NCBI GenBank assembly: GCA_013368325.1
Contig: JAACJK010000220.1
Span: 310,001 to 374,000 of the forward strand
Length of the DNA stretch: 64,000 nt
From: Ephemerocybe angulata
Lineage: Eukaryota > Basidiomycota > Agaricomycetes > Agaricales > Psathyrellaceae
Direction: 5' to 3'
The translations under genes were made by a program, and so were the position numbers. Under the pieces are notes generated by a model. The model searched no databases. It had not been told where the DNA came from and saw only the letters and a program-made list of their open reading frames with translations. Within the stretch, counting starts at the first letter, position 1. The number at the start of each line of letters is the position of its first letter. Below, piece by piece: positions 18,458 through 64,000 of the stretch.

Positions 18458-18919
18458 GGGCGCGGATGCGCTGAGATAGATGGTTCAAGATAACGGCCTG
18501 GCTGGGCCCCGGGAGGAACGAACAGGGGAAAGGAATGTGGAAACGGCGTGGCAGTTGGGAGAATATATTGGACGCGCAGGACTCTTTCCGGCACAGCGCC
18601 CAAAACTTTGTTTACCCCAGTTTGGCACTGCCCAGCCCCTGAACGGCAGTGCCACACGCTGTTCCCAAGCCCCGGAATCAGCACAGCTTGCCCGCACCCA
18701 ACCCGACTTGAAACCGGCACACTTCTCCGCCGCGGGCGGCACGGCCAAAGCTCACTCCGCCCCGAGCGCTTACTGGCCCCGGCTGACCGTGGGAGGCAAA
18801 CTTTAGGGGCGGCGGCTGGGACAATAACGCGCAGCAGCGACTTAGTGCAGAATTCTTTGTGGTCTGGTCGTTGTGCGCCTTCATGTCCTTCTAGCCGGGT
18901 CCGTCTGCCACCCTCGTAT
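18458..18919. promoter_or_regulatory. Divergent promoter ags1/STE11
   Basis: This GC-rich stretch of 462 bp lies between the glucan synthase (-) and STE11 (+) start codons. An A/T patch with GAATATATT near 18560 could act as a TATA-like element. The STE11 frame stays open upstream of its first ATG, but only with non-ATG codons, so I do not extend the gene. Confidence 0.45.
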
Positions 18920-21900: not shown

Positions 21901-22644
21901 GGTGGATCTGTCGCTACCCTCCTGTCGAATTACGGCGCTTTCGAGGAGCAGCTCGTCCGTAATTTCGTTCACCAGATTCTGCAGGGTCTGCACTATCTGC
22001 ACGATCGAGACATCATCCATCGCGATATTAAGGGTGCTAACATCCTCGTCGATAACAAGGGCGGTGTGAAGATCTCTGACTTCGGTATCTCGAAGAAAGT
22101 GGACGACAGTATGTGGATCTATCGTGACTTATTTATCTTGCTCACGCCCGTCATTTACTCCCTATGATAGATCTTCTTGGTGGAAACCGTCTCCATCGGC
22201 CTTCGCTGCAAGGCTCGGTCTTCTGGATGGCCCCAGAAGTGGTGAAACAGACCGGGCATACCAAGAAGGCCGATATCTGGAGCGTTGGGTGTCTTGTTGT
22301 TGAGATGTTGACCGGCGAACACCCATGGGCGCAACTCACCCAGATGCAAGCCATTTTCAAGGTGCGCCATCTGCTCTAGTACATGCTTTACCTATTTTCT
22401 GACTAACGACCGCGCGTTCGGTTAGATTGGCTCCTCCGCCAAACCCGCCATCCCGACTGACATTTCGAGCGAGGCACAGGAATTCTTGAAATGCACCTTT
22501 GAGATCAATCACGAACTGCGCCCCCCTGCCCACGAGCTTCTGCAGAACCCGTGGATTGCGAAGAAATCAAAGAAGTCCAGTCAAAAGGAGAGCGCCAAAG
22601 ACCGGGACAAAGAAAGCAAAGACACTTCACCCGGCCTCGAGTAG
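18920..22644 (+). CDS. STE11: MAP kinase kinase kinase Ste11/Byr2
   Basis: Six exons (18920-20375, 20423-21517, 21577-21798, 21851-22108, 22171-22361, 22426-22644) join in frame to 1,146 residues. A second possible start at 19034 would give 1,108. Order of domains: a SAM domain (about 70-140; [20 protein letters not shown]), a long Pro-rich linker, the Ste11 Ras-binding-like domain (about 412-480; [13 protein letters not shown]), an acidic region, then the kinase (about 852-1125). The kinase has [13 protein letters not shown], catalytic Lys in [24 protein letters not shown] and MAPEVV. Fungal Ste11 relays mating and filamentous-growth signals from Ste20/Ste50 to the MAPKK Ste7. All catalytic residues are present. 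Confidence 0.95.
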
Positions 22645-23092
22645 TCCCCGGTCGCCGAAACGACCGACCACGTTTATTTTCTTCTTCTGCATTTCTTGTT
22701 CTGTATCGGCCTTTTTGCTCTACCGCTGTGTAATAATCTTCCATCACCTCATTTCAACTTGTTTCGTATACCCCACACCCCACTTCGCCTTCCTCATCTC
22801 CGGCCTTCATCGTAAATTATCTCTTTCTCCGATTCTGGCATGGTTTCGCGGACATGTTCTCGTGTCACAGTCGTCTGAACTACTCACGCACGCTTTCCTA
22901 CCATCGCTATCCTCCTATACCTACATGCGTCTACTACTTTCTACCCATTGCTATATTGTCACCCTATATTATACTTTCATCCCTCTCAAACGTCTTCATG
23001 CCGCACATTTTGGTTTCACCAACCAACGTTCCGAACAACCCTCATCCTTTTAGCACTGTATGTATGTTGGGACTATAGATGTATCAGGAATA
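22645..23092. other. Convergent 3' intergenic region
   Basis: A pyrimidine-rich 448-bp stretch between the STE11 stop and the TRM1 stop. It probably carries both 3' UTRs. The open frames through it have no family resemblance. Confidence 0.45.
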
Positions 23093-25503
23093 CTACTCTG
23101 GCTTTTTGCTATCGTCAGCAGGAGCCCCGTCCACAGCCATCCCCTCAGCGTCTTCCTCTCGCTTGCGCTTGAGCTTGGGGTTCGTCTTCCCCGTCGCCCT
23201 GGCTCCAGGGCCCCAGTGCGGGGTGGGGTTCTCCTGGTACCTCACCAACCTGACCTTAGACAGCACTGCAGAGTCAGGATGTCTGGTGAAGTCCGCGATG
23301 AGTTTGGGCTCCTTGGCGAGGAGCCTCAGCGCTGGGGAGCTGGGCGGGATTTTGTCAGTCTTGACCGGGTTAAGCTTGATGAACCCGCGGATAACATCGT
23401 GGATGTCGCGGTTGCTGGCTGTCGTTTTGAGTGAGCCCGCGCACGCGTGTGAACGCGAAATTTTGAAGCCAGCGTTGAGCAGCGCGGAGGCTACCTCTTC
23501 GAGGGCGGGTGTTTGGCAGTGGAAGTGGCCTGACACCTTTCCGGGGACGAAGTAGAAGAGGGTGTCGAGCTCCTGGATGATTCGTGAGATGCTGCTAAGA
23601 GAAAGGATGTGCGTGGAAACTTGCCTCCTTTGCGACTGTGAGCATGCCCTTCATGCGGGTTGCCGTACCGTAGTGGTCGACATTACTTTCGAGGTGTTCA
23701 AGCACCTTTCCGATATATTCAGGATCGTGCAGTGGTCCGTTCCACATAGGCCCGGCCACCTAAAGACGAAATAATTGGCGACATCGAAATCGTTTGACGA
23801 CGGAAGAGCTTACATGCAGGTTTCCTTCGCACTCTTCACATTTTTCTGGGATGACATTGGTCTGCGTCTTATAGAGATAGTTGGTATGTCCTGACTTTTC
23901 GTGTTTCTTCTCGACTACCCGTCCAAGAGGTTGGTTATAGAACGATTGACACGAAGAGCAGACATGGACAAGGGAGGTCTTCCTAGATACAAAGTTAACC
24001 CAAAGTACAGTCGAGGGGTGCAGATGGAAATGCTTACGCCTGAACCTTCTTCACCTCGGCAGGGCCAGTGTCTACACGCACGAAGACTCGGATGTAGAAA
24101 TCGATTGAAAGAGACACCAAAGGAGTAATGTATCTTCCGTATCGAGCAGCTGACGTCGCGAGGGTGTGCAAAAGGAGGCGCAGAGCCTAAGGAGTGTCAA
24201 ACCCAGCTCGATTTGGATCAATGAAACGCAGACCAACCACTTCATGTGCGAACTCTGCCTTGACTGGAACACCGCCGTAGTTTGAGAAACTGGAACCCGT
24301 CAGACCACCTCGCCTCTCAAGGCTTGGGTTAAACACGTTACCATTTCTCCGGATAGTTGTTCGTCGCAAGCACAGCGAGGTCTGTGCAAGTAACACAGAG
24401 TAAACCTGAAACGGTCAGTCAGCCAATTTGCTTGATTCGATGCAGGACGCTCAGGCTTACCACCGTCCTTGATACTTTGGATGGCAGGGTCGATAAAGGG
24501 TGCAGCAGTCCCATAAGGATCGAGATCAACGACGTCAACGCGGTCCTTCTCCTCACGATGACTATACATCAAGGAGCTGGAGTCCCATGAGCATATGGTT
24601 GGAGAAGCATAGCAGATCGTTGTGCGTACCATGCATCGCCTTCGTTGACTCTGACCTTGGCCGGAATGACTTTCGTTTGTCCGTCATGCCCCTCCAACCT
24701 TTTCTCCCCGAGATCGTTCCATTCCACATTACGGTGCATTGCCTCCACTGCAGCGGGCGACAGGTCGTTGGCGATGACATGTCTACAATACCGTTAGTTC
24801 AAATGTACCTCCAATCAACCGCTGCGTGTACGCACTTGAGAAGGGGGATTTCCTTAGCGTAGCGTATCGATCGGAGTCCTGTCGCGGATAGGGCTTCGAG
24901 AATAGTAAATCTGTATGGTTGGTGCTGTGGTTGAGAATTCGTGACGGGCGCTTCATGACATAAAGTCGTGAGGACTGACGCTTGCCGTATCTGAAGAGGC
25001 TTGCTCAGAAGTGGAAGCCCCTGCGTCCCCGTGAGTGGGATCTGGGTGGTTCGCTATCGATTTTCAGCACTGGCGAAGACGCCGTCGTAAACGAACGCAC
25101 CCTTGGCTCTTTTGGTCGCGGGCGCAAAATCTTTCCCAGAGACTTTTGCCTTCTGCTTTCGCTCTTGCTTCTGTCTCCACTTCGCTTCTTTCGTCCTGTT
25201 CGATTCTTCACTCCAGACGCGGATGCACGCGACACTCAAATCACGATTAAACTCTTGGACCGGGTTCAGGAATGCGGCGTTTGCGTCTAGCAGAATGGAC
25301 GACGAGTTTTCCGTGTGCAGAACGTATCCTTCAGGCACCTCCTTCGTGCTCGGTGCGGTGTTGACCATTCTGAAGCGCGAAAATGAAGTAAGCTTAATAG
25401 CTCTGGCCCTGGCACAGGAGACTGCGAATTGAAGGGTTGAAGCCACCTTGGTCAGCCTTGGTCGAGCTGGAGAACCAGAAAAAGTGCGTGAACTGTTTGC
25501 CAT
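23093..25503 (-). CDS. TRM1: tRNA (guanine26-N2)-dimethyltransferase Trm1
   Basis: Multi-exon gene. The N-terminal catalytic part contains [52 protein letters not shown] and [17 protein letters not shown], the SAM-binding and catalytic blocks of Trm1. The C-terminal part contains CSSCQSFY, a Zn-finger-like Cys pair, and [19 protein letters not shown]. The basic tail ends at 23093. Trm1 makes m2,2G26 in nuclear and mitochondrial tRNAs. The first ATG (25503) opens an Arg/Ser-rich, acid-poor 45-residue leader that looks like a mitochondrial presequence. A second in-frame ATG at 25368 ([10 protein letters not shown]) precedes the conserved core, as in yeast TRM1. Confidence 0.92.
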
Positions 25504-25671
25504 CAACGGACTTTGACGCGTCCGCCAATCAAAAATCTCGTTTTAGCCCCTATCTGAGATTCTTCGTAGTAGTCTCCTGTGCTTTGAGTTCGGGTTGGTC
25601 AATTCTAATGGACGCAATGCAAGTAATGTTCCCTATAACGCCAACACAGCTCATAGCGCAAGCCTAACTCC

Positions 25672-28187
25672 TCAATAATCAAACTCCTCGGAATAATATG
25701 ATACTGCCTTCTGCTCTCGTTTTCCAGCCTCCGCAACTTGGTCCGACGCGATGCATTGCCTGACCAGAACATCGAGAGACACTGGACCACAACCTGCGAG
25801 ATACTCTTTAGATATGTGAATTTTAGCCAAATGGTCGACTTACACGCTACCAGCAACGAGCTACTCGTCTCCTCCAGCTCGCACTGCACGATGCGAACCA
25901 TTTGGGGCTTCCCCGGCCTAGCATACCTCGCAATAGCGGAAACATCCTTCAGTTCCTCCCTGTCCAGGCACACTTTGGCAGAATCATAGACTTCTTCACC
26001 AGGTAGGGCACTGAGATTTGTATGGATGGGCTTATGCCACGCTTGCCGCCTGATTATTTGGGAAAGAGAAAGCTCTCCAGGCGGCAGCATAACCTTTCTA
26101 TCTCCTTCAAATTCCGTCAAATCTCGGCTTCGGAACTGCGTGGCGGGCTCATCAGGGTTGGGGAAAAGGGAGTTCCACCAGCTTTCCATCCGGTCACGGT
26201 CGATATTCACGTCTTGCATCTCGCTGCTGCTGCTTTCTTCCGGTATACCTGTCCCTGCGTTAAAGTCTCTTGTGTGTAGGACGGTAGTCTTCAGTGGGGG
26301 TACTTTCTCCGTTGCGACATCCAAGGAAGCCGTCCCCATCGACTCCGAGATAGGCCTTCCAATAGAAACTTTCGTGACAAATATATCTATCCGAAGCCTA
26401 TCATCTGGCAAACGAAGCTTGCATCGTCGAATGGTGGATGCGCACCACTGAAGGTGACCTGTCAACCACGCAATCGTCAATATTGAATAATGATAATTGC
26501 TCAAGGTAGCCATACCGAAGTCTCGAATCAACCAGATGAAGCGGACCCGCCGTAGGCCCAAGCCACCCTCTGGCTCTGGGCTGATATCCTGCTCCGCGAT
26601 CAATCGAGAGACGTGCTCGAGAATCGACAACCCAAAAGTGACACCAGAACCTCCGACCACAAGTAATACAGACGAATAATGCTCCCATGGAATCCTAATA
26701 GAGCTCCCAAATGGCCCGTCGACATTCATCCTCATTACCAGTCCGAATGCTGGGAGAGGGAAAGTTGTAGGTGTGTGGCATGTGTTCGGGTCCTGATCAG
26801 ACCATACCGTCCCCTTTGTACTCTGCGACGCCACTGTATCCCATAAGTCCTTCGTCCAGCCGGTTTTTGCGCGAATGAGGAAAACGAGCTGTGACTGATC
26901 TTCACCGGGTGTGATATCCTGGGGATCGGAAACGCACGTAAAGGGGTGAGAAGTGAATCTGGATATCGCGGGGACATTGATGAGGAAGTGCTGCCCAGGA
27001 GCCCATCGGATTCTACGGCTTGAGGTATAAGTTAACCGGATTGTCGCCCCGGTCAAGAGCTCTGCGTGCACGTAACCGGGAGGAGGTTGATATCTTGCTG
27101 TCGGCTTGATTGGCGAATACACCAAGTCCGTTTTCAGAGATGTTGAGGACATATGTCTCTGGGAACTGGAGCGGTTCAGTAGCGGAATGGCATGACCGTA
27201 GTTGAGGTAGAGGATCCAGGAAGAACGCCAGACTCGTTCAAACAACCAGAGGGACAATGCCAGCCACGCCCACCATGCAGTCTCAGGGTGATGGAAGCCA
27301 ACCATGACCAAGGTGAGGGGGAACAGGAAGACATGCAATGCATAGAATGCGTCGTAGTGGACCTTTCGGAATGCAGGAATGGAGGTTGTCACCAGTATCG
27401 TAAGCAACCCAAACGCCTGCAGCATTTGGTCATATATTAGTATAGTAATTGCTGGGCCCAATGGAGGAGCACGTACCACCCAACCACAGATGAACCTATC
27501 TTTCGTGAAAGCTACCTTGATAGCCAGGTCTTCTTTCTGTCCAACGCGATCTCTGCACAACTTGATCGTCCACATGACGACGTGCACTACGGTGAAGAAA
27601 TAAAGAAACCAGGCCGCCCATCGATGAAACAGTGCGAGTTTGTCGAAGTAGAGGCGTGTCGTAAACTTCCAGCTGAAGATGGCAGCAGGGGATGATTTGA
27701 GGGCGAGTAGGACGACGAGAGGGAGAAGGAAAGAAGCAACAAGGCCAGCTCTTGCGGCCGATGTCCAGAGAGATTTCTGAACGGTGCTTCCAAGTGATGG
27801 TACGCCCGTAGTGTAAGTGGGTCCAGGGATGTAATCCGGGCCAATGAGAGATAGGCAAGCCAGAATGGCGAAGAGCACGAATAACAGAAGGATGGCACCA
27901 TTGCTCGGAAGAAATTTGGGTGATGACGGCTCAGATGAGGCCCTAAAGCTCACTCTCCCTCGCCTCCTTGTCGCCCATCTCTTGACTAGTAAGGACACCG
28001 AATTTCTCCAGGGAGCAGCCTGCCAAGGGGTCTTGGTCAATAAGAGAAAGAGGAAAAGTAGCGCCCAGAATATATAGGCGTAGATTTGTGATTGTTGGTT
28101 AAGATAGTGTGAGGGGAGGTAAAGGTCTGTTTCCTGAGTGGCGACGCTCCCGGGGATTCCCTCCACAGCGAGGGTCATGGAAGTCAT
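25672..28187 (-). CDS. Ferric reductase transmembrane component (FRE family)
   Basis: The start at 28187 begins a protein of about 800 residues with an N-terminal membrane helix (IYAYIFWALLFLFLLL). The six-helix ferric-reductase domain has its haem histidines in FHRWAAWFLYFFTVVHVV and FYALHVFLF. The cytosolic FAD domain includes RFTSHPFTCVSD, and the NADPH site is LLVVGGSGVTFGLSIL. A 57-bp intron near 27,420-27,476 is in frame. A last intron before CGPVSLDVLVRQC restores the family ending and terminates in YYSEEFDY. The enzyme passes electrons from NADPH across the plasma membrane to reduce extracellular Fe3+ or Cu2+. Its neighbour ATX1 belongs to the same copper-iron economy. Confidence 0.93.
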
Positions 28188-28680
28188 AGTGGTACGGACT
28201 TCATGGGCGAGAACGAAACGAGATCTACTAGCAGGTCAGCCACATTGGGACTGTCGAGTAATGACGAGTTGACCTCCCCCCTTCAGTCTGAGTCACCCGC
28301 AGACGTCCGGTTCGCCGGGTTGAGTCTCAGTTATTGGGCAAGCCATAAGTATGGGAATGGGAGTACTGATGCAAGAGGGAGGCGGGCGCCAAGCGGGCGC
28401 TCCGCTTAAAGCCACATCAATCTTTCCTTTAGCACGTATACTGTACATGTACTACTGCATACCGCAAGTATCTGTGGTCTCTGATGCTACTAGTGAAAAG
28501 GCCCTCAAAAGGTAGCGTGCAGTCGAGGCAAGTTTCAGACGCCGCAGTGACTCGTAAACCTAAGTGTTCAAGGGAGTGCTTTAGAGTGACTTGAATTGAT
28601 ATAGTACATACACATCCACTGTTTATTATTCAAAGAACATTCGAGCCGAAATGGGGGAACCAAGCCTACTAGCCTTCTCG
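28188..28680. promoter_or_regulatory. Ferric reductase upstream region
   Basis: These 493 bp hold the ferric reductase promoter and the 3' flank of ATX1. I see no iron-regulator site I would defend, and no gene. Confidence 0.4.
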
Positions 28681-51923: not shown

Positions 51924-52139
51924 ATGGTCTACCGGGTCTTTGCTTCCGGATTGCGAACCCGCGCTTCTTGCTCTAATCTCTTTAGATCCTACAACCATCT
52001 ATCGTCTCGACCATCCAATTTAATACTGCGCAGGACAATGGCTTCCTCTAAAGCGCTCAGTGCTGAACGTTTCCTCGCCGATCGCGCAGCGCCTATTTGT
52101 GGGCTCGACGCTGCGAAGTCCTTCGCATTGCTAAGGTAG
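51924..52139 (+). pseudogene. 5' fragment resembling dipeptidyl peptidase III
   Basis: The frame begins with an Arg/Ser-rich leader (MVYRVFASGLRTRASCSNLF), then an internal Met (MASSKALSAERFLADRAAPI) and CGLDAAKSFALL. The FLADRxxPICxLD pattern is how fungal dipeptidyl peptidase III proteins begin just before their conserved EKLYAHH region. That region and the HELLGH zinc motif are absent: coding similarity ends abruptly at about 52135. It looks like a duplicated or transposed first exon without the enzyme body. The identification rests on about 25 residues. Confidence 0.55.
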
Positions 52140-52928
52140 CTCTAACAGCATCCGATGATCCTCGCTCAGCAACTCAAGGACTCTCTGTACAGCTCGAAGG
52201 AAAAGAAATACGCTCATTTCCTTCAGGGCGTTCAGCATGGGTGAGCCAAGTACATGGGTCACCAGAGATTGGATCTGGCTCAACTGTGATGCTATAGCCG
52301 AGCCAATTGACATTGACTAATGGCAAAAGTGGCATGAGTCAAGTGGCCCTGTGTCAATCGAGATAGAGTCAAGTGATAGCCCAGGTTGTCAGAGGGGAGG
52401 TAGATCAATAAGACCGGCTATTAGTCTGTAACTCGGCTGAGCCCCTATCGTTCCCGAAGAGTAATGTAGAGCACCGGGCAACAATGAGTAGCCTCGGTAA
52501 CATATATCATCGGAGCCCCCTTGTAAAAGAAACGGTTCAGATCGGGTGTCGGCGCCTACCTAAGCGCCCGCCCGTGACCCTCGGGAAAGGGCCTACCCTC
52601 CTGTCCCTCTCTGTTAGGACTACCTAGGTAAGCTCTCTCAATAATTTAAAATGGCATTGTACTCAAAGTTGGTGGAAACTCCTCGTCGGACACCCTCTCC
52701 ATCGTATGTGCCAGGATCTGTCGGCCACCTTACGCCCTATCCCAAATTCGGCCAGCCGAATTTGGACTGGCGATCCCAAATTCGGCTGGCCGAATTTGGC
52801 CACCGACTGTCATGGCCACCAACCTTCCCGATTCCCTCATTGGCTGGCCGACTATCCGGGATTCCACAAGGTAATTTTCGGGGGGCATGCAAATGAGTGA
52901 GAACTAGATAAAGAAGATGTAGATAAGC
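52140..52928. other. Gene-poor junction before the KDZ region
   Basis: These 789 bp have no supported gene. They include the twin palindromes at 52742-52799 listed separately. Composition shifts towards CCGA/TCGG-rich sequence from about 52500, which may mark the approach to the transposon. Confidence 0.4.
52742..52799. repeat. Twin palindromes (10-bp arms, 4-bp loops)
   Basis: Two hairpins share the arms CCAAATTCGG and CCGAATTTGG: 52742-52765 with loop CCAG, and 52776-52799 with loop CTGG. The loops are reverse complements, so the two hairpins are also inverted copies of each other. They could be recombinase or transposase binding sites, or leftovers of a nested insertion. Confidence 0.75.
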
Positions 52929-53669
52929 CTATTTAGATACATATGTAGGCACATGGAAGCCATTTGGACCATATTTATCCTCATCTCCGGGTGTCCTTCC
53001 GATGATCTGGAGAGTATGCAGGGCGTCGTCCCACAGTTGAAAAGCCTCCCATAAATCCTCAGTCTCGATGCACCCCTTCTTGTAATGATCCAAGCCACCT
53101 TGAAGGTGCTTCACCCAGTCGCTAAAAATTCGTAAGTCGGGACACCAGCCCAAGCAATCGGGGGTAACTTACCCGTCGGAGTATATCCCTGGAACCCGGC
53201 CTTTGGTGACAACATAAAAAATGGGGCTGGTGGGAATAAACGGTGGTACAATCGCCGGGGTCGGGCCTTCAAGCAGCTTGAACTCCCCAGACCGCCGCCA
53301 GCCCGGGGGGAGCAGGCCGTACAGTTCTCGCGGCCTATGGATCCTCCGCCGCTCAGCTATCTCCTCCCTGATATCCTCCATGTGTCCTTCTATACCCAGT
53401 TCATCATCGTTCACACGATTGCTGACCCGCTCGATGTCCAATCGGGTTTCAAACACCTGATCCAGTAGGTTCTCGTTTGAGGTACGGAGCACGATGGCGT
53501 GATTGTGGACCTGGTTGACCATGGTGCAAAGGTACTGAATCTTGTTGCTGAGGCGGGCTATGGTAGCGTTGACGGCGGCTAGTGAAACATCGGGTGCTAG
53601 ACTGCCCGACATGGAGTTGTCAGAGATAGCGGGGATTGCGATGGGAGGAGGTTGAATGGGATCAGACAT
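52929..53669 (-). CDS. Protein with C-terminal RNase H1 N-domain-like (viroplasmin) fold
   Basis: Two exons encode about 228 residues. The start at 53669 gives MSDPIQPPPIAIPAISDNSM, then a coiled-coil region (NATIARLSNKIQYLCTMVNQ; RLDIERVSNRVNDDELGIEG). After RRRIHRPRELYGLLPPGWRR comes FYVVTKGRVPGIYSD, joined across an intron (GTAAGT donor) to WVKHLQGGLDHYKKGCIET. The FYVVxKGRxPGIYxxW pattern is that of the RNase H1 N-terminal domain, which binds RNA-DNA hybrids and duplexes. No RNase H catalytic domain is present. Such stand-alone domains are numerous in agarics. Its role beside the transposon is unknown. Confidence 0.75.
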
Positions 53670-54197
53670 CGGGTAAGAACAGAGGGGGATAGGTACAAGT
53701 GTGGGGTCCCTTGGAATCGAAATACCATGCAGACTTCGAGACTTATAGGGTGTTTTTATAGGGCATAGGGCATACCTTCAGGCCAATGAGGAGATTCTTT
53801 GATGCTTGCTGTATTCGGCTAGCCCGAAAGTCGGCCGAAATGTCGGCGCATGCGTAATCCAATTGTGGTGGGGGGCTACCGAGCCCGAGGCGGTTGACCT
53901 TGGTCGTGACGTTGAAATCCCGATGGCATTTTGTCGGTGACCTGGAGTAAATAAAATGACCAAAGAGGTCTATCTCGGCCTTACACCGTATACGTACTTG
54001 AATGCGATGTGTGAGCGTGGAAGCAGGGGTGGGTGCCAGCATGAAAGCAATATGGTAAGGTCGGACTCCGGGCGCCTAAATGCACGGTGGTTATATACAT
54101 ACTGTGATCCGTTTATTTGATCATCGGAAAAGCAGGAATCGGCACAATTAGCAATGCTCTTCCTGAGTCCTCCCTTGATTCACCTTGAGGCAGCCGC
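53670..54197. promoter_or_regulatory. Divergent region with CCGA/TCGG motifs
   Basis: The 528-bp gap between the RNase H1-N-like gene (-) and the TET/JBP gene (+). A 99-codon minus-strand open frame lies here, but it has no family features and I do not call it. Near 53815-53850 the sequence is dense in CCGA and TCGG. Confidence 0.4.
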
Positions 54198-55598
54198 ATG
54201 GCGAGAACGAATAATGAAATCATAAAAACCGGAAAAATCATGGCTTTAGCAGACACCATGAAGACCGACGATTCTGCCCTTCCTAACAGTCTCATATTAC
54301 TGACAACCTGCGTTGAATATGCTCGGAGCCTTATGAAGGAGCGAGCTGGGACAGGCTCGCCCGTTGTCTCAAAGACAGGCATCACATTGGAGCTCCGGGG
54401 TGAACTGGAGAAAATGGTAGACAGAGTCAATACAGCGTGGGATGCACAAGGTCAGTTCCTATTCCTACTGATATTATCGTCCTGGATATTCTATGTATTT
54501 TCTCATCGGCCGCAGTACACCTCAACTACAAGCTTGAAGACATCATTGCAGAGTTGCAGCGGAGTACCTCGTACACGAAGTCGCAGCAACTCTTGCGCAA
54601 GTTTGGGGGCCCCTTCCAACCGAAGCCGGACGGATCGGGGATGTTACAGCTGCAGTATGAGCCAATGGTCTTCATCGACAGTGCCTCGAAGGTGGTTTCA
54701 TGGTATTTACCAGGAATATTTACCTCCCATCGATGTGTGAGTACATGTTTCATTTTGGTATCATCCGACTATCTAATATACCAAAAGGACATTGTAAACG
54801 GGGCGGTTCAGGCTCTCTCTGACCACCCGAAATCCATCCTCCGAATCAAGAAGGCCGGCACAAATTGGCGAGATGATCGGACAACGTATGCCGATTCTGG
54901 GATTTGCAAGTTGAGGCCCGGCCACGTCAATATGAGTGTTGCGTGGTATGAGCAAGGGCACACAGTAAGCCATATTACCATCCAGCTTGCACAACATCAT
55001 TCATGTTTCTGGCTAGCATAAGACCAGGCTTCCCCGTCCAAGCGCTTCTTTAAATGCAGGCTCGGACAATGGGGCCTTGGAATTTCTAGAGGCTCTCAGC
55101 GAGACGAACGCGCTTATCGGAACGGTCCTCGCCCTCGTTCACCCGGATCTCTTCGAAATGCAACTATCCGTCCTCCAAGCACTTTACCAAGGCCGCGCGG
55201 GGGCCACGACACGAGTCCGAATGCTCGAGATATTTGAATATTGGGCCACTCCATTCACTGGGTTTGCCCTGATTTCAAACCGCGAGACACCCTTCCATCG
55301 GGATATCAATGGTGGAAAAATGATGTTTGATGCATTGGCTGTCTTTGGGGATCATCGGGACGGGCGACTGGAAGTGCCTATTCTAGGCGGCCGATTTATG
55401 TATAACCCAGGAACTGTCTTCATACTTCCTGGGTATTTATTTGAGCATGGGGCAAGCACTACACAGGGCGATAGGGTATGTATAGCCTGCTTTATTCGGC
55501 CCGCGGTTGGATACGGAGCCCTACCAACCTATAGTGAGGCAGTCCCACCTACCCGGGCACGACTGAGCTCATTCTACGGGTGGAATGGTAGTAACTAG
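54198..55598 (+). CDS. TET/JBP-family 2-oxoglutarate/Fe(II) dioxygenase
   Basis: Four exons (54198-54450, 54516-54736, 54788-54964, 55017-55598) join in frame to 410 residues. The catalytic double-stranded beta-helix lies in the last exon. NRETPFHRDINGGKMMFD supplies the HxD iron ligands (H311, D313). GRFMYNPGTVFILPGYLFEH supplies the distal His (H361), and TQGDRVCIACFIR the 2OG-binding Arg (about 370). TET/JBP enzymes oxidise 5-methylcytosine (or thymine in JBP); basidiomycete members act on 5mC. The N-terminal helical part (ITLELRGELEKMVDRVNTAW) has no named domain. All ligands are intact, so activity is plausible. The gene lies in the KDZ transposon neighbourhood. Confidence 0.82.
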
Positions 55599-55658
55599 TT
55601 GGGCTTAGACTGTAGTATGATATACATCGGGCATTGGCAGGTCTATCCAGTCGGAATG

Positions 55659-55668
55659 CCGATATCGG
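55659..55668. repeat. CCGATATCGG palindrome; start of inverted 12-mer pair
   Basis: Behind the TET/JBP stop, TCGGAATGCCGA (55651-55662) runs into the perfect palindrome CCGATATCGG. The reverse complement of the 12-mer, TCGGCATTCCGA, occurs at 56668-56679. The pair brackets the orphan gene at 55727-56419. Confidence 0.6.
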
Positions 55669-55726
55669 AACCTCACCCAAGTGACTGGTGAATCGGGTCA
55701 GAATTCACAAACTTGGATCAATAATT

Positions 55727-56419
55727 CTACTTGTACAGGATAGCTCTCAGCTTCTCGTGGACTAAAGTAATGCTCTCCATAGACTTTTTGGCATCTCTGA
55801 GATACTCACGAGACACCACCAAGTCCTCGTCCATCTGATCGCATGTCCGAAGTAGTATGGACAGGAGCCGATCCACCTGTCCCCCCGTGCTACCTTCCTT
55901 GAAGATAAAATCTTCCTCGGCCCAGTGCTTCAGAGATACCTGGAACTCTGCGACTACGGTCTGAACTGAGTGCTTTTGGAATTGAGGGAGCCACCAGTTG
56001 AGTGTGGTGTATTTCGCCTTGGTTTGCATGTTCCGATCGTCGAGGAAACACCCGACCTTCAGTGCGGCCCAAAGATCGGCATCCTTTTTGTATAGGTGCA
56101 GCCGACGTGTGATTTTCGCGAGGGGTATGCTCAGGCATGTGATCAGAGGAGCGACGGTCCTTTGGAGGCCTTGGATAGTGTATGCGATATCCTGTTCGGC
56201 TGGTTATACACTGATATCCGGAGCCGCGAATCGGAGACTTACAAGTTCGTTGTAGAATAGCTCAATGTACCGATCATCAAACTCAATAGTTGCCCGATTG
56301 TCGTATATATGGGTGTAGAATGCATCGCGGCGCATGTCTACGTACACGGTGAGTGCCCCCCAGAAGTCAGGAGAAGACCAGGTGGGGAAAGTAGGCTGTT
56401 CCGTGGGTGGATCCTGCAT
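55727..56419 (-). CDS. Orphan gene A beside the KDZ element
   Basis: Two exons encode about 225 residues. Exon 1 (start 56419) reads MQDPPTEQPTFPTWSSPDFW, then YIELFYNEL before a GTAAGT donor. Exon 2 begins DIAYTIQGLQRTVAPLITCL and continues as an all-alpha protein with AKYTTLNWWLPQFQKHSVQT and LLSILLRTCDQMDEDLVVSR. No membrane segment or known motif is visible. I do not recognise a family. Open frame, clean splice sites and codon use like its neighbours support a real gene; its place between TET/JBP and the transposase suggests it belongs to the same element. Confidence 0.6.
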
Positions 56420-56586
56420 ATGTTCATCTAGGACAGCAGCGGCCAGCTACTTTATATTCAGTATTCTCCCTTTCCCTGTGCTTCTTCATGTGGAGAAGAA
56501 CCTTTATAAAGAGCCGGCCCTGGCTTCTCAGTCTCCTTTTGTCCAACTTAAAGGTGTCGGGGCATTGAAAAATACAAGACAATAAA

Positions 56587-56690
56587 ACGACCGATATATT
56601 ATGTAATATTCCCGACGATCGGGTTGCGAGCACAGAATCTACAGAATCCGATGTCGGTGTTCCTATGTCGGCATTCCGATGTCGGCCCAG
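56587..56690. repeat. CCGA/TCGG-rich palindromic cluster
   Basis: Within about 100 bp there are the perfect palindrome CCCGACGATCGGG, two copies of CCGATGTCGG and the inverted 12-mer TCGGCATTCCGA. The cluster lies between the two orphan genes. The density suggests a protein-binding region, or remnants of element ends. Confidence 0.6.
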
Positions 56691-56695
56691 CATAT

Positions 56696-57455
56696 CTACT
56701 TCGGGGTTTCCTCCACTTCCTCCTTCACCATCTTCTCCTGCAGGGCTTCGATATCAGCATAGAGGGCTCGCTTCTTGATCAGATTCTCGGAGATGGAGAC
56801 TAGGTGGTCGAAGTTGGCATCCAGCGCGGCATCAATGAATGCGAGGGCGTCGGCGGCAACAACGCGGGCGTCGTTGAGTTCCTTCACCGAGAACTTGCTC
56901 AGGTTGACCTCGGTCTGCAATCTCTGAGGTGGGGGAATCCGATGTGCCCGATCCGCCTTCCACCATTCTGTGACTTGGTAGAACCTGACAGATTCGCCCG
57001 GTGGGCCTGTGGGATCACCACTCCACCTCAGCCACCAGTCCCCACTATACTTTGGGAGTATGGGATCGCGTTCATCCCTCGTGTCGCCCGCGGCTGCCAT
57101 GAGAGCGTCAAACTTCGGGACCGCATTGTCGAGCATAAGTCGGGTCAAGCCTCGGATGGCACAGGGTGGGCTAATCTGCTCAGGGTGGATGGTGACCAAA
57201 ATCCCTGTAATATAATTGGTGGATAACTAGAGGGAATTTATGAGGCCTGGAGAAGACATGGTCAGGAAGAGCACGTACAATCTCGGATTGAAGATTATTG
57301 TAGAACTGGAAGCGATTTGGCTCGTCGAAAGACTCCATCCTGGAAGCAAAGGTATACGCTGCTGCCCGAACTCGGCTAGACGCGTAGTTCAGGAGGTCTT
57401 GTCCCTCTCCCGGGTCAAGGTCTCTGATCAGATGATAGGTCTCTCTGATAGTCAT
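56696..57455 (-). CDS. Orphan gene B beside the KDZ element
   Basis: Two exons. Exon 1 (start 57455) gives MTIRETYHLIRDLDPGEGQD and ends FQFYNNLQSEI at a GTACGT donor. Exon 2 resumes ISPPCAIRGLTRLMLDNAVP and continues KYSGDWWLRWSGDPTGPPGE and FYQVTEWWKADRAHRIPPPQ. A C-terminal coiled coil ends EEVEETPK. About 225 residues, soluble and acidic at the end. The Trp-rich GDWWLRWSGDP stretch is distinctive, but I cannot link it to a named domain. It starts 197 bp from the transposase stop on the same strand. Confidence 0.6.
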
Positions 57456-57652
57456 GAGTAGTGTAAAGGTGTGGGAGGGAGGGGGAGGAGAACAGGAGCT
57501 CTGGGGCCCGTCTCAAATGTGAATATCTAGTTAATAACATGTTTCAAATATCTGTTCCTCTCGATGGGTGATTTGTAGCACGAGGTACATTGTTCAACTT
57601 CTACGATTCCATCAAAGTATATTCTAAACCCCCTTCTATCTTTTCCATGCTT

Positions 57653-60600
57653 CTAATGTCCTTTGCTTTCTACATCGGACTCGCTATCATCCGAGTCGGA
57701 ACTCGTATCCGTTGAATCCGTATCGGGCTCGCTTCCTTCCGGATCTGGATGTTCCAAGTTGACAACCCCTTTAGGGTTGGTATCGGTATCGGCACTCTTG
57801 GCTTTGGTGAGCTTGCCCTGTCCGAATCGGGCGATGGCATCGGCGCGAACCCGACCCCACATGTCGGCTTGGCGATGGGCGTATGACTTTGGCCCATCAC
57901 CGAGGTCAAGTGTGGTCCATCCCAGAGCTCCATCCCGCTGATAAGACATCCATCGGGAAAACCAGTCCATCTCTGACTCAATCATCACCACTTCCTCGTC
58001 CCACCTGTCACGCCGGGACTTCGCGCGGATCCAGTTAACGCGATACACTATATACAGTCAGTCCAAGTGACTGCCAGAAAATAGTAGCCATTTACTTACA
58101 TTCTTCAATGTGATCCCCATTATCCACAGCAACACCCTCGGGCGTTGCCGTCCATATCCAAGTCAATGGTTCCTTTGTAGGCTTGTCCAAGTTTGGGTTG
58201 TATATGCTCGTGACCGCCTTGGTGTGACCTCGGGTGAGTGGCTGGAACATCGGGTAGTCCTTCAAAGCCCCGAGCTTATCCAAAGCCCATCGGGCAATGT
58301 GATATCGCTTCATATGGAAGCGGAGGGACTTGTCGACTTCCTTGATCGCATCATAGCCTCGGGTCTTGGCCCGTTTGCCGATTGCGAGAGCCCGATTTGC
58401 CCGATAGTGCCAAGACTTCTGGGCCACAGAGTCCCGAATACCTTCAAGAGCCTCGTTTGCCTGGGCCACCCGCAATGCCTTCTCAAACTCGGCAACCCGT
58501 TTCCAGCCTTTGGGCAGCTTGGACAAAGCAGATGGAAGAGGAAAGGGGGTCAATTCTTCAGCCGCCTCAACGCGAAGTGCCGCATCCTCCCCCACGACTT
58601 CACAGAAGCACTCGTCGTCATCGTCCCCTTCACAAACACATTCCTCCTTTGAATCATTCCACTTCCCACCCAGCAGAGTACGAACATCTATGGCAAATAG
58701 CTCATCAGCCGACTCATATAAGCTGTTCATAGATTTAATAATGGCTTGACTGGCCCTGAGAAGACCGATATCCATCTTGTTTTGCTTTTTTCGGGCTTCC
58801 TTCCTCTTCTTTGAACTTGACTCAGTGACATCAGCCGGTGGCTGAGAACGAAGCTGGGATAAGAAACGGATTCTGGGAATTTCAGAGAAAGTAATATCAA
58901 ATGCAGGGCCTGGGACTCACTGTGCTTCTTGAAGGTCAATGGCCGATGATACCCAATCGGCAATTCCGAGATGCTCATTCTCCGAAATTTCCAACTCCAT
59001 GAGATTGGCATGAACATCGCCCTTGGGAGTCACTAAACACTGATGAATACGAGGCAGTAATTTAAGTATCGTAGACGCACCTTTGGTTGTCCGAACATTG
59101 TATACGTCCATTGAGTTATTGTTTGTATCGGCCCGGCCCGAATTTGCCTCGTCCATGTCGGCCTGCCATTCCTTTCGCTGGTCCTCTGATGCCGTTTTAT
59201 TGAGTGCTTGAAAACTTTCATTTGCTTTGCTCTGGGATTTCTTCGCCTTTTTCAGCTGTTTGATCAAGTAAGGAACTGTTATTTAAGAATCATGAGTTTC
59301 TACAAAGGAAAAATTAAGATATATGTCTGACCCATCCCCTGTAACTTTCTCCAATTACTATCAGCCATACATGCATCCAACATTTCGGACCGGTGAGCAA
59401 GAGTCATAGATCGGGTCATATTCGCAGCACCATTCAGAGTAGACCAGAGAGATTCCAGAATCTCTCCACTGGTAACACCAGCACCAGGGAGGTAGGTGGC
59501 GGCAAATCGGGCAAGACAATCCTCCTTGTGGCCATGCACGTGGAACAGCCCGACGACGAAGGACATGGGGAGGGTAATCGGGCAGAGAGAGAGTAGATGC
59601 TTGGCTCGGTTGACCCGTTTACGGAAATTGACCGAGTACTGGCAGTTGATGTCGTATGCTAGAGTCACCCCCGACGTACTCTGCCCACCAGTATTGGCGA
59701 TTGCGTGGCAAAGTGCGTAATCTACGTTGATCTGCCTTACAGTGCAAGCTGTCAGCTAAGCTCAAGGGGAGTAGAGAATAGAGAACCACTGTACCTCTCT
59801 CCCTTTTGCATGTCGACAACTCCACCTGGTGCGAAGCAGCCGTGGCGAGCGCATGCAATGGCCACAAGACCCGTAGAGTCATAACCTTTCTTGGCCTTGT
59901 TCTTGTCTGCAACGGCGCGGTGCTCGTAACAGGTTGGCGGCTAGATAAATAAATATCGGGCGGTTTGGGTATCGGGATGTAAGTTCATAAAATTGGGACT
60001 TGCCTCTTGGTACTCTTTTCCACCTTCCAGATGCTCCTGGTAAGCGGTCCTCTCAACCATATACGAAGCTCCATCAGTTAACCAGATGGGATCCTGGCTT
60101 TTTTTCTTGATGGAATGGTTCAATACAAAATTGCCGTCTGCCACAAGATATCGTCTGAATTTCCACCTGGCAGGTTTTGGAGGTTGGGATTTAGTAAAGA
60201 TATTAAACCTTTTGATAGAATGTGACTCACTGGTCTTCGTCGTCTTCCCAATTCTCTGGTAGATTGACGTTCGGCTGAGGGCAAATCGGGCAGTAAAGTG
60301 CCAGTTCCCCGACATCGGGTCGGGTACCAGGCCGAACATGGCCGAAGCCCTTGCGCTTCAAGCCGACAAGATGGTTCCACTGCTGCCAAACCCTTGCGAG
60401 CTCCCGCTTACGGTTCTATATATCGATTCCATCAAAATTTGACCATGATAGAAAGAGGGTAAGACATACCGGAGCCATTGAGGGGAAAATATAGTTGGTG
60501 TAACGTTTGAGAATCTCGGTAAATGTTTCATTGGAAATATGGGCGTGGACCCGATGGATGTGTGCAGCCTTTAGAACCTCGAATGTGAACACGGTTGAGA

Positions 60601-61495
60601 TCTTCTTCCAGGATGAGGGGTAGAGTGACATGTCAAGATACTGAAGGTCCTCAGAGTCCGCATTGACACAGAAACAGGGGAAAACTGGGAGATGGTGAAA
60701 ACCGTTGGTGTGGACAATGGTGATGACCGAGCCCGAGCCCACAGCAGACCTTTGGGGGGTGGCACCATAGGTCGGGTCATCGGTGAAGTTGTCGACGTTG
60801 TTGATACTGATGCAGCGGGCCTCTAGTTGCTCTCGGGTCCCTTTGTACATAGGACAGGGCTGACCATTGTGACCGAGAAAGATGGCGGTACCAACGTGCC
60901 AGAGCCAGGCTGGGACCCAGTGCGTCCCAACCCACCGCTCTATCCGATGCAGGGGGTTTTGCCTATGAACCTCCCGACAGCAGTTGGTGCAGAGCCGAGA
61001 GGTGCTGTAACATTCCAAGCAACGCCATAGGGTTGAATGATCCATACAGCGCTCACAGGTACTGGACCTAAGAGCCTCGGCATGGATGATACGGTCGAGA
61101 TAGGCTGTGCACTTTGTCCGACCCCATTCATCCATGTACTCGTGGGTTGTCTGGTTAAAATATAGGTCAATGTGGTATTGGATAAGCTTAAACATATAAC
61201 GGACCTTCCCCTGACTGGTCTTTCCTGTGTGTTTCTGGAAGATTCCTTCATTGATCGAGGCAGGAGCAGGCAATTCATGGCTTGGTGGGGCAGCATGACT
61301 GAAGCTATCGGGATCGGGCTCATAGCCATCCAATCGGGCGCGTTTTCCCGGGGTCTTCTTGGCTTTGGGAATCCGAGAGGAGATGTGTGCGGTAGTGGGG
61401 ATAAGACGGGATTTCTCCCCCCGGGTAGTCTTCGTTGTGATGACCTTGTGAATGGTAAAGCCAGTGGAGGAGGGGTGGTAGACTTTTTTGGGCAT
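57653..61495 (-). CDS. Kyakuja-Dileera-Zisupton (KDZ) transposase with CxC2-like cluster
   Basis: The start at 61495 (MPKKVYHPSSTGFTIHKVIT) opens a multi-exon gene of well over 1,000 residues without visible breaks. A basic N-terminus precedes a cysteine cluster, CERCMDHSTLWRCLEC then CTNCCREVH, matching the CxC2-like domain attached to fungal KDZ transposases. The core has VADGNFVLNHS (60,110-60,140), LAYDINCQYSVNF (59,640), FHVHGHKEDCLARF (59,530) and EILESLWSTLNGA (59,455). These supply the acidic residues and GH motif expected for the RNase H-like KDZ fold. The C-terminal part contains WHYRANRALAIGKRA and an acidic Ser/Asp tail ending ESDVESKGH. It likely cuts and moves this DNA element. 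Confidence 0.9.
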
Positions 61496-61570
61496 GGCAG
61501 AAGATGGATGTATGACAGGAGATGGCTGTTTGATAGGAGATGACTGCAGATAAACGTGTTGGTCTCCCTC

Positions 61571-61580
61571 ATATATATAC
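61571..61580 (-). promoter_or_regulatory. TATA box of the KDZ transposase gene
   Basis: On the minus strand GTATATATAT lies 76 bp upstream of the chosen ATG at 61495. This spacing supports that start over the open frame that continues upstream through the minisatellite, which begins only with non-ATG codons. Confidence 0.6.
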
Positions 61581-61624
61581 TGTGAAGAAAATCGGCCACA
61601 TGCCTCAAAGTTCATAGTACCCAT

Positions 61625-61815
61625 CAATCTCCTACTTTGCTCCCTCAATCTCCTACTTTGCTCCCTCAATCTCCTACTTTGCTCCCTCAATCTCCTACTT
61701 TGCTCCCTCAATCTCCTACTTTGCTCCCTCAATCTCCTACTTTGCTCCCTCAATCTCCTACCTTGCCAACCTCCATCTCCTACTTTTCTCCCCCAATCTC
61801 CTACCTTGCCAACCT
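61625..61815. repeat. 21-bp minisatellite in the divergent promoter
   Basis: Six perfect tandem copies of a 21-mer beginning CAATCTCCTACTTTGCTCCC run from 61625 to 61750. Three diverged copies follow up to 61815, immediately before the next ATG. On the minus strand the array would read as a 7-residue REQSRRL repeat, but this lies upstream of the TATA box. The array therefore sits in the shared promoter of the transposase and the HMG-like gene. Confidence 0.9.
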
Positions 61816-64000
61816 ATGTCCTCAGCTGCAGAGGAGTCAGACTCTTCTTCCCAGAGCAATACCGATGATGTCCCCAAAGAGGAGAAGAAGACACTAGATA
61901 GTCGGTTTACCGAATCTCAGCTGGACTATCTCCGAGATAACAAAGAGGCGTACCGATATTCAAGCGCAACTCAAAGGAAGGAGTTGGCACAGGAGACCTA
62001 TGAGAAATTTATGCAGGAGATGCAAGCAGCAGGGCGAGATTGTAGCAAGGATGATGCATCGGCTGTGAATGAAGTGAGTGGTCCTTGGCCCGAAACCCGA
62101 CCCGATTCAGATATAACATTTCCATATATAGAACGTTCGGCTTTGGTATCAGCAGAGAGCCCGATCCCGAAAGGATGAACCCCGATGGGGGATTGCTTGG
62201 GATCCAAGGCAGGTTTTTTACAAAGAGAACATGGCTATGGTGCTAGAGACCCAGAGGAAGCTCTATGCCGAGGCTGTGGGCGTACAGCCATCAGAGGTGT
62301 CAATTGAACCCGCCGAGGTTGAAGCCGCAGGTGAGGAGGATGAGGCCGAATCCGAGATCAACTCTGCCAAGTCAGCAAAGCCTCCCCGTCCATTCAATTT
62401 CTTTCAAAGGGCCCTTACAGCTGAATGGACGAAACTAAATGAGAAGGAGCAAAAGAAGTACAAAAAGATGGCTACTCTGTGGAGGGAACAAGGCCCTAAC
62501 GAGGAAGAGAAGCGAAGGTATGTAGGATTGGTCCCAACTCCTATCTATTTCTGAAGCTTATCTCGGCACTACTTATCTCGGCGTTTGTCCATAATTACAG
62601 GCTAGCGGAGACTCGTTTGGTCGAGATTATGACCCAAATATCCCGAGATCTGTATGCCCAAGCTGGAGTTCGGCTTGTTTCTTTGGCGAGTTATACAAAC
62701 ACTCAGGGTGCCCTATGTGTCAGTAAGTACACTTTACTTCCTCAATACTACAGCCTTTGACGTGGCTGGACATATAGCCACCCTTGATTTCAACCACAAG
62801 ATTGACGGAGGTCAAACTTTTAAATCGGGTGCAAGGCAGTGGTGGCACAAGTCAAATCCTGAAGCTGCGTATGGTGATTTCCTTGTTGCATCGGGCAAGG
62901 ACGGCCAAGATCATCGGAAACAGCCCCGTTCCGATCTCGTTCTCAAAAAGAATGAATATGGAGAACCCATCCTCCCCGACCCGAGAATTATCCCACTGGG
63001 AATGAAGAAGCATAAGTACTTTGTTGCCCTTATCCGAGCATTTGTTCGCGGGACATACGGTATGACTTGTTCCCTTACAACCGCACTGTACTTACAATAT
63101 GTATAGCTACTTCTAAGGGTGTCAAGGAAAAGAGCCGAGAAGCAGCACCCCCTTGGAGCGCACTGGCCCGAGACCTCGGGTCCTTGGTTTCCCGAGACTA
63201 CTTTCCAAGCAAGTACGAGCCTCTCTGTGACCCAAATGTCATTCGCGTGGACAGGGCAGAGAAAATCCTGAAATTCTGGTTCCGGAGGCAAGAGAATGGA
63301 GAGATTCCCCTCTCATTTCATCACTATCTTGGAACTGATGACGAATACCATGAACGTGTACCCCGAGAGGTACAGGTCCTATCGGACTCCGAAGCATCCG
63401 AAGACGAAGGACAGCCCAAAGCACCAACTCGGAAGACGCGTGCCCGACGTGACCCTGGTGGATCTCGGGCAACTGGTCTCCCCGATCATAGTGGATCAGC
63501 CCCTAGCTCTGATGCTAGCTCCGAAAGTGAAGTCGAATCCCGATCCCGTACAAAGAAGAAGAAGAAGGCTAGTGTCAGAGGACCCCAGAAGTCAGCGGCA
63601 AGGTTGAGCGCTAAAATAGGCGCCAAGTCACGGGGGAAATTGGCCGGTGTGCAGAAAGGGGGTCGGCGTATTGGGGATGACTCCGATGGTGAAAGGGAGG
63701 ATTCCGGTGTTGGTGCTGTCCCATCGGATAAAGAGGTGATTTCGGAGGCGAATCTTGGTCTTCAACGGGACATCAAAGGGAAGTCTCGAGAGGTGACCGT
63801 GGATATGGATGTTGACATTCATATCAATCAAGGTATTAATTTCCATAAGACAAATGGATTGGGCTAACCTTTGGCTATAGAACCTGCCGTTGGCTCCTAT
63901 GGTATTGAAACTCCCGATATCGGCACCCCGATGATTGTAAATTCGGAAATCGGCAGCCCGACGGTGATCAATTCCCGGCATGGCACCCCGACTTTGGACT
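61816..64000 (+). CDS. HMG-box-like nuclear protein, runs off right edge
   Basis: The ATG at 61816 gives MSSAAEESDSSSQSNTDDVP, then an LDSRFTESQLDYLRDNKEAY helix. After an intron, KPPRPFNFFQRALTAEWTKL joined to NEKEQKKYKKMATLWREQ has the spacing of an HMG box. Later exons carry FKSGARQWWHKSNPEAAYG, PDPRIIPLGMKKHKYFVAL and PLCDPNVIRVDRAEKILKFW. A long Ser/Lys/Arg-rich disordered region with SRTKKKKKASVRG follows. The last exon in view (entered after donor GTATTA) encodes a 10-residue IGTP repeat and is still open at the window edge. It is divergent from the KDZ transposase and probably a partner DNA-binding protein of the element; that role is inferred. Confidence 0.7.
63919..64000 (+). repeat. 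30-bp coding tandem repeat (IGTP repeat)
   Basis: Units at 63919-63948 and 63949-63978, and a third cut by the edge, encode IGTPMIVNSE, IGSPTVINSR and HGTPTLD. Each unit carries CCGA or TCGG tetramers. The array probably continues beyond the window. Confidence 0.7.

Follow-up and report, generated by a model that had tools for sequence, protein, structure and literature searches.

In the present study we have analysed a window of 64,000 nucleotides from Ephemerocybe angulata (contig JAACJK010000220.1, here C120; the window is C120:310001-374000), in which a KDZ transposase gene lies close to a gene for a TET/JBP dioxygenase. We propose that both belong to a complete 18.9-kb transposable element of the TET+ Kyakuja kind, with a gene plan that recurs in related copies and with a working that can be outlined, and we hold this statement as a whole to be very probable. 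That a composite element with the TET gene and its partner genes exists as one mobile unit, as a first-pass annotation of this DNA had supposed, seems to us practically certain, because exact ends, an empty site, 7-bp duplications and a gene order shared within the near KDZ clade all speak for it. Iyer and colleagues (PNAS, 2014) reportedly linked KDZ transposons with TET/JBP genes in basidiomycetes, and their abstract is said to name a divergent HMG domain among the encoded proteins; compared with that linkage, the ends, the target duplication and the empty site are added here.

The limits of the element were read from a paralogous sequence on the same contig, within a searched genome of 58.7 Mb in 232 contigs. 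Window positions 52000-52223 match C120:232223-232446 in reverse with 99% identity, and from position 52224 onward the match switches to the KDZ-TET copy at C47:87283. The paralogue, C120:231000-232900, matches both flanks of the element, C120:361908-362223 on the left (95% identical) and C120:381169-382398 on the right (99% identical), and the two matches overlap by exactly 7 bases. At the left junction the flank TTTCCTT is followed by CAGGGC of the element, and at the right junction TTGTGTG of the element is followed by the flank TTTCCTTGCC, the termini being CA at the start and TG at the finish. Two frames of the right flank encode parts of a peptidase M49 (E=6.5e-44 and 9.9e-9), which we take to be dipeptidyl-peptidase III-like, and the element interrupts this predicted gene. 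A copy of the gene free of the insertion, 95-99% identical, is found about 130 kb away in the opposite orientation. This paralogous gene copy therefore serves as the empty site, giving an element of 18,945 bp. The ends at 52224 and 71168 rule out that the KDZ gene alone is the element; an end pair mapping just around 57653-61495, which the first-pass annotation had named as the outcome that would speak against a larger unit, did not occur. The block 52929-64000 that had been taken for the unit proved too short, since only the left 62% of the element (52224..64000) is in the window and the remaining 7.2 kb, with two more genes, lies beyond it.

Alignment with other KDZ-TET loci of the same genome, which had been suggested as a check, gave further ends and target duplications. 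The second copy, C47:87283-106098 (18,816 bp), is bordered by ACCCTGA at both sides and the third, C215:291485-311575 (20,091 bp), by CTATTCC, so that 7-bp duplications are present in three of the four copies whose two end regions were compared; the same three copies have the termini CAGGGC..TGTG or ..GGTG. On the TET side, the copies on C66 and C214 share 2775 bp without a difference and then diverge at the CAGGGC terminus; on the side away from TET the likeness persists through all the sequence compared. The query CAGGGCRTTCAGC has nine matches in the genome, five of them left ends of element copies, and its reversed control has three. Inside the ends, an inverted match of 59 bp with 78% identity connects 52254-52312 and 71079-71137, and there are no long terminal inverted repeats (TIRs). 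TCAA(G/T)TG-type sites are clustered in either terminal 250 bp, with 4/6 in the window copy and 7/10 in the C47 copy once palindromic double counts are merged; the unmerged counts, 4/7 and 9/13, compare with 0.18 and 0.35 expected, for a motif that was selected after the ends had been inspected.

The second line of evidence is the recurrence of the genes. Among the best-scoring candidates, and with the place of the query included, the genome holds at least 63 matches to the N-terminal part of the KDZ protein with its CxC2 cluster, at least 30 to TET, at least 22 to the orphan X1, at least 13 to the orphan X2, at least 25 to the HMG exon and at least 22 to the terminal gene T. We took the best 25 of the 63 KDZ matches as the near clade and counted those partners that lie on the side and strand where they were expected. 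With a limit of 30 kb, TET accompanies 20 of these 25 loci, X1 20, HMG 22 and T 19, and all four are present at 15, although some of the most distant partners may be part of a neighbouring copy. Under tight limits (8, 6, 3 and 12 kb, respectively) the counts are 19, 19, 19 and 14, and all four partners are kept in 10/25. The other 38 KDZ matches reduce to 28 remote loci after removal of pieces near the 25 and of near-duplicates, and just one of them (C209:35412) is accompanied by any of these genes at a distance of up to 30 kb. KDZ copies lacking their neighbours, which had been named as a possible refutation, were thus not met in the near clade as a whole but are the rule among remote loci. 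As the near copies are bundled and nearly all remote loci are without neighbours, the gene bundle belongs to one KDZ clade. Of the 13 X2 matches listed, 12 have a TET match no more than 8 kb away, and the remaining one (C210) is at a contig end.

The core layout reads TET> <X2 <X1 <KDZ HMG> <zinc/coiled-coil T>, the arrows giving the strand, and this predicted plan of seven genes (TET, X2, X1, KDZ, HMG-like, zinc/coiled-coil, T) is shown to recur across the near KDZ clade. The last two of the seven lie beyond the window, and the zinc/coiled-coil gene is present in 5/5 other copies examined (C47, C64, C66, C210, C214), the last four being near-identical. A conserved content of six genes had been expected; its two orphans and the HMG-like gene do recur, while its RNase H1-N-like gene is not core and the zinc/coiled-coil and T genes had not been seen. 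The coordinates are collected in Table 1, with gene limits set by hand because automated gene models fused adjacent genes.

Table 1. Features of the element, in window numbering unless a contig is given.
Feature	Position	Strand	Remarks
TET+ Kyakuja element	52224..71168 (C120:362224-381168)	+	18,945 bp; from the empty-site paralogue and both ends
Left 7-bp target duplication TTTCCTT	52217..52223		right copy C120:381169-381175, beyond the window
Left terminal 250 bp	52224..52473		clustered TCAA(G/T)TG-type motifs; part inversely matches the right end
Module with RNase H1-N-like gene	52616..53958	-	1.34 kb; frame 53172-53777 and likely second exon; not core
TET/JBP dioxygenase	54198..55598	+	exons 54198-54450, 54516-54964, 55017-55598; start codon by hand
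X2, orphan, predicted helical	55730..56419	-	213 residues
X1, orphan, predicted helical	56699..57457	-	235 residues; start approximate
KDZ transposase with CxC2 cluster	57653..61615	-	5' start uncertain
HMG-like protein P0004	61842..~64677 (past window end 64000)	+	864 residues; 5' end uncertain
Zinc-cluster/coiled-coil gene	65802-69304	-	two CxxC..C groups and coiled coil
Terminal gene T	coding to 70529	+	beyond the window

Several observations weigh against the reading of a recurring mobile unit. Of the 19 partners missing within 30 kb, 7 are attributable to contig ends (C64, C214, C210, C231 and the left side of C58) and 12 are not (C197, C117:33945, the right side of C58, C97, C207, C37). 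TET matches without a near-clade KDZ within 30 kb amount to 6 of the 30 listed, two of them close to a contig end; the corresponding figures among the matches listed are 3/22 for X1, 0/25 for HMG and 3/22 for T. The 25 KDZ loci are not independent, since they include near-identical duplicates (C64, C66, C210 and C214; C117, C22 and C125). The exact left terminus was located in five copies only, and the fourth copy compared, on C219, showed no recognisable ends in the stretches compared. Finally, the evidence is drawn entirely from sequence. The extreme alternative, that chance alone placed these genes side by side in a region rich in repeats and that no composite element exists, can draw on the fact that different repeats do adjoin one another there. 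However, chance predicts 0.006-0.007 partners per KDZ locus in each gene family, while 19-22 of the 25 loci have one; with the exact ends and duplications added, the probability of this alternative is close to nil, and the empty site together with the recurrence in effect refutes it.

The KDZ transposase with CxC2 and the TET/JBP oxygenase of the first-pass annotation are both confirmed. In the exon-joined model the KDZ match covers profile positions 1-212 of 217 (E=6.3e-50) and the CxC2 match has E=1.5e-16; the three introns inspected are all GT..AG and measure 54-73 bases. The TET gene, located inside the ends of the element, matches Pfam Tet_JBP with E=9.5e-20, and the ligand positions H, D, H and R are present. 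They are kept in 23 of 25 aligned copies, the exceptions being L040, where Q replaces R, and L044, where the match stops short; the alignment holds 25 of the 30 matches, the five omitted being short pieces, four of them with internal stops. The closest solved structure is CcTet of Coprinopsis cinerea (7vpn, 8jkk; E=1.6e-33), whose oxygenase fold the window TET shares as far as can be judged from its sequence alone. According to a study of CcTet (PMC11040006), Gly331 and Asp337 are the residues that admit N6-methyladenine (6mA), and their equivalents are present in 25/25 and 24/25 of the TET copies. The TET proteins of the near-clade copies have diverged by 35-60%, and the ratio of nonsynonymous to synonymous substitution rates (dN/dS, Nei-Gojobori) is 0.05-0.14 in 8/45 pairs, a rough value since many scored pairs of TET, X1 and X2 have dS >1, the remaining TET pairs being saturated.

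The element is a TET+ Kyakuja of an already described kind, with a gene plan fuller than we found described. It is placed there by its ends, by the length of its duplication and by its host group, rather than by a tree against Zisupton or Dileera. TET+ Kyakuja elements of Agaricomycetes, according to Kojima 2025 (PMC12730594), combine a KDZ transposase and an AG-type TET in one element and have 7-bp duplications, CA..TG ends and no TIRs, all of which the window element resembles, with the difference of its sub-terminal inverted match. Neither HMG nor RNase H is mentioned in what could be consulted of the main text of that paper, nor are genes like X1, X2, zinc/coiled-coil or T described in the text parts. 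A literature search, which left most subscription papers outside its scope, yielded no paper on Kyakuja with HMG, and for KDZ, HMG and JBP together it yielded only a brown-alga paper, in which HMG appears just in a reference title. KDZ1 of Cryptococcus neoformans (PMC12810828) is likewise a KDZ element of large size, encodes a zinc-chelating cluster and has been seen to move; it measures about 11 kb with 241-bp TIRs, 8-bp duplications and CxC1, whereas the window element has no long TIRs, a 7-bp duplication and CxC2.

Regarding the partner genes, the two orphans noted in the first-pass annotation are real: our X1 and X2 models agree letter for letter with the listed E. angulata proteins DFP72DRAFT_850110 and DFP72DRAFT_850111. 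A Pfam search matched no domain in either. Both alignments contain an invariant WW pair, profile comparison (hhalign) aligns X1 and X2 over 194 columns with 70% probability (E=4e-5), and the AlphaFold models are helical with a similar helix order at low confidence (mean pLDDT 62.0 and 60.7); X1 and X2 are probably relatives of each other, as these suggestive comparisons of profiles and models indicate. Foldseek with these low-confidence models gave no fold match (best E 5.2 and 0.93), and the best match of the X1 profile in the PDB has E=0.13. Searches for homologues outside the species with X1, X2 and one more query, which needed shared 5-residue words, returned 1, 2 and 4 proteins, every one of them either assigned to E. 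angulata or encoded in the window itself; the four-protein search scored the best 7985 candidates. The HMG-like gene is a core gene with a weak box: HMG_box_2 (cut-off 22.4 bits) scores above the cut-off on one exon (26.0 bits, E=1.5e-5) and just below it in the whole 864-residue protein (21.4 bits). A related HMG-like protein is listed under the label D9611. A fragment of the zinc/coiled-coil gene searched against the genome matched itself alone, although the protein is conserved elsewhere along its length.

The RNase H1-N-like gene had been counted as part of the unit, and this assignment did not stand. The match to PF01693 is weak, with 16.6 bits against a cut-off of 21 over 15 residues (E=0.0095), and across the genome the family model matches at C223 only; the domain is probably split by an intron, which weakens this comparison. 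The protein has eight matches, in the window, on C11, C97 (two), C189 (two), C215 and C47. The DNA of the module, 52616-53958, is 95% identical at C11 (L070, C11:108001-110100) and parts of it are 89% identical at C189 and C97, whereas identity to the window TET is 48% for the TET of C97 and 46% for that of C189, and the C11 contig has no TET match, its only KDZ being a remote match about 100 kb off. Since the module is so similar where the TETs are divergent or absent, it moved among elements after the elements had diverged, and RNase H1-N is rejected as a core gene; we regard the gene as a putative passenger that spreads separately. No ends or target duplication of the module were recognised in the module comparison. 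Against a passenger stands the fact that 7/8 of the matches, the window's included, are in or beside TET-KDZ elements, two of them (C215:298025 and C47:382294) being weakly similar and inside other element copies, and a loose but lasting association of the gene with these elements is conceivable. The hybrid- or duplex-binding step that had been supposed for the unit found no support.

Taken together, we propose the following working of the element. The KDZ transposase would bind the clustered sub-terminal motifs and carry out cut-and-paste transposition, the HMG-like protein might bend the DNA for synapsis, and X1, X2, the zinc/coiled-coil protein and T could be partners in assembly or targeting. 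TET would oxidise 5-methylcytosine (5mC), and perhaps 6mA as well, within the element and would thereby keep the genes of the element expressed or its ends accessible. An escape from methylation-based silencing has already been proposed for TET+ Kyakuja by Kojima 2025 (PMC12730594), and an anti-silencing role of the predicted TET enzyme is in our opinion somewhat probable.

Two rival explanations touch this proposal. KDZ and TET, or even KDZ alone, may suffice for movement, the HMG-like, X1, X2, zinc/coiled-coil and T genes being passive cargo inherited from one founder. This fits the fast evolution of X1 and X2, which have no recognised domain and dN/dS values of 0.11-0.51 (8/10 pairs scored) and 0.13-0.51 (10/21 pairs scored), the other pairs being saturated, as well as the copies without partners and the occurrence of nested passengers. 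However, X1, X2, HMG and T stay recognisable and keep side and strand in most near copies despite the divergence of TET, and dN/dS is below 1 in all these scorable pairs, many of them rough; we consider passive cargo possible but unlikely. It is equally unlikely, though again possible, that TET, instead of protecting the expression of its own element, works for the host or on DNA in general, with oxidised bases as a common mark of transposons and centromeres. Kojima 2025 (PMC12730594) reports that retrotransposons are oxidised too in C. cinerea and L. bicolor and suggests non-targeted action, with which the TET matches away from near-clade KDZ agree; yet the gene lies between the exact ends of an element and is carried along with it, and the many intact copies per genome fit a benefit to the element better, as the same source argues. 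Going further than our proposal, TET, the HMG-like protein, X1, X2, the zinc/coiled-coil protein and T might constitute one co-adapted machine, a targeted self-demethylating transposition complex, in which fast-evolving accessory proteins would recognise the sub-terminal motifs of each subfamily and bring oxidase and transposase there. We find this doubtful; if it were true, the machine would contain two new protein families, the probably related helical X1 and X2, each with its invariant WW pair.

With the composite element, a loose linkage of KDZ next to TET becomes a unit whose ends are exact, whose empty site is known and whose seven-gene plan recurs in one genome, near-identical copies with different flanks included. 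This makes the role of transposon-borne TET enzymes directly testable. Besides, four co-travellers of TET are named, namely two orphan families, probably related to each other, and two further genes.

Some further observations concern individual copies. Four near-identical copies (about 98-99.7%; C66, C214, C64 and C210, that is L056, L058, L060 and L061) are near contig ends and are perhaps chromosome-end duplications; the TET-side flanks of C66 and C214 differ. The copy on C179 (L026) has, downstream of TET, an open frame of 390 residues that by eye resembles a retroelement integrase, which fits the unusually wide gene spacing of this copy. A 21-bp tandem repeat of about nine units occupies 61618-61831, where the KDZ and HMG-like genes diverge; in a scan of 20 KDZ loci it is found only at the window's own, and other copies have other repeats. 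A stretch of about 380 bp between the HMG-like and zinc genes (64861-65236 in window numbering) is 70% identical and inverted in the C47 copy. Outside the element, positions 13640-28235 of the window contain ordinary host genes for a starch-synthase-type glycosyltransferase, a protein with SAM and Ras-binding domains and a ferric reductase.

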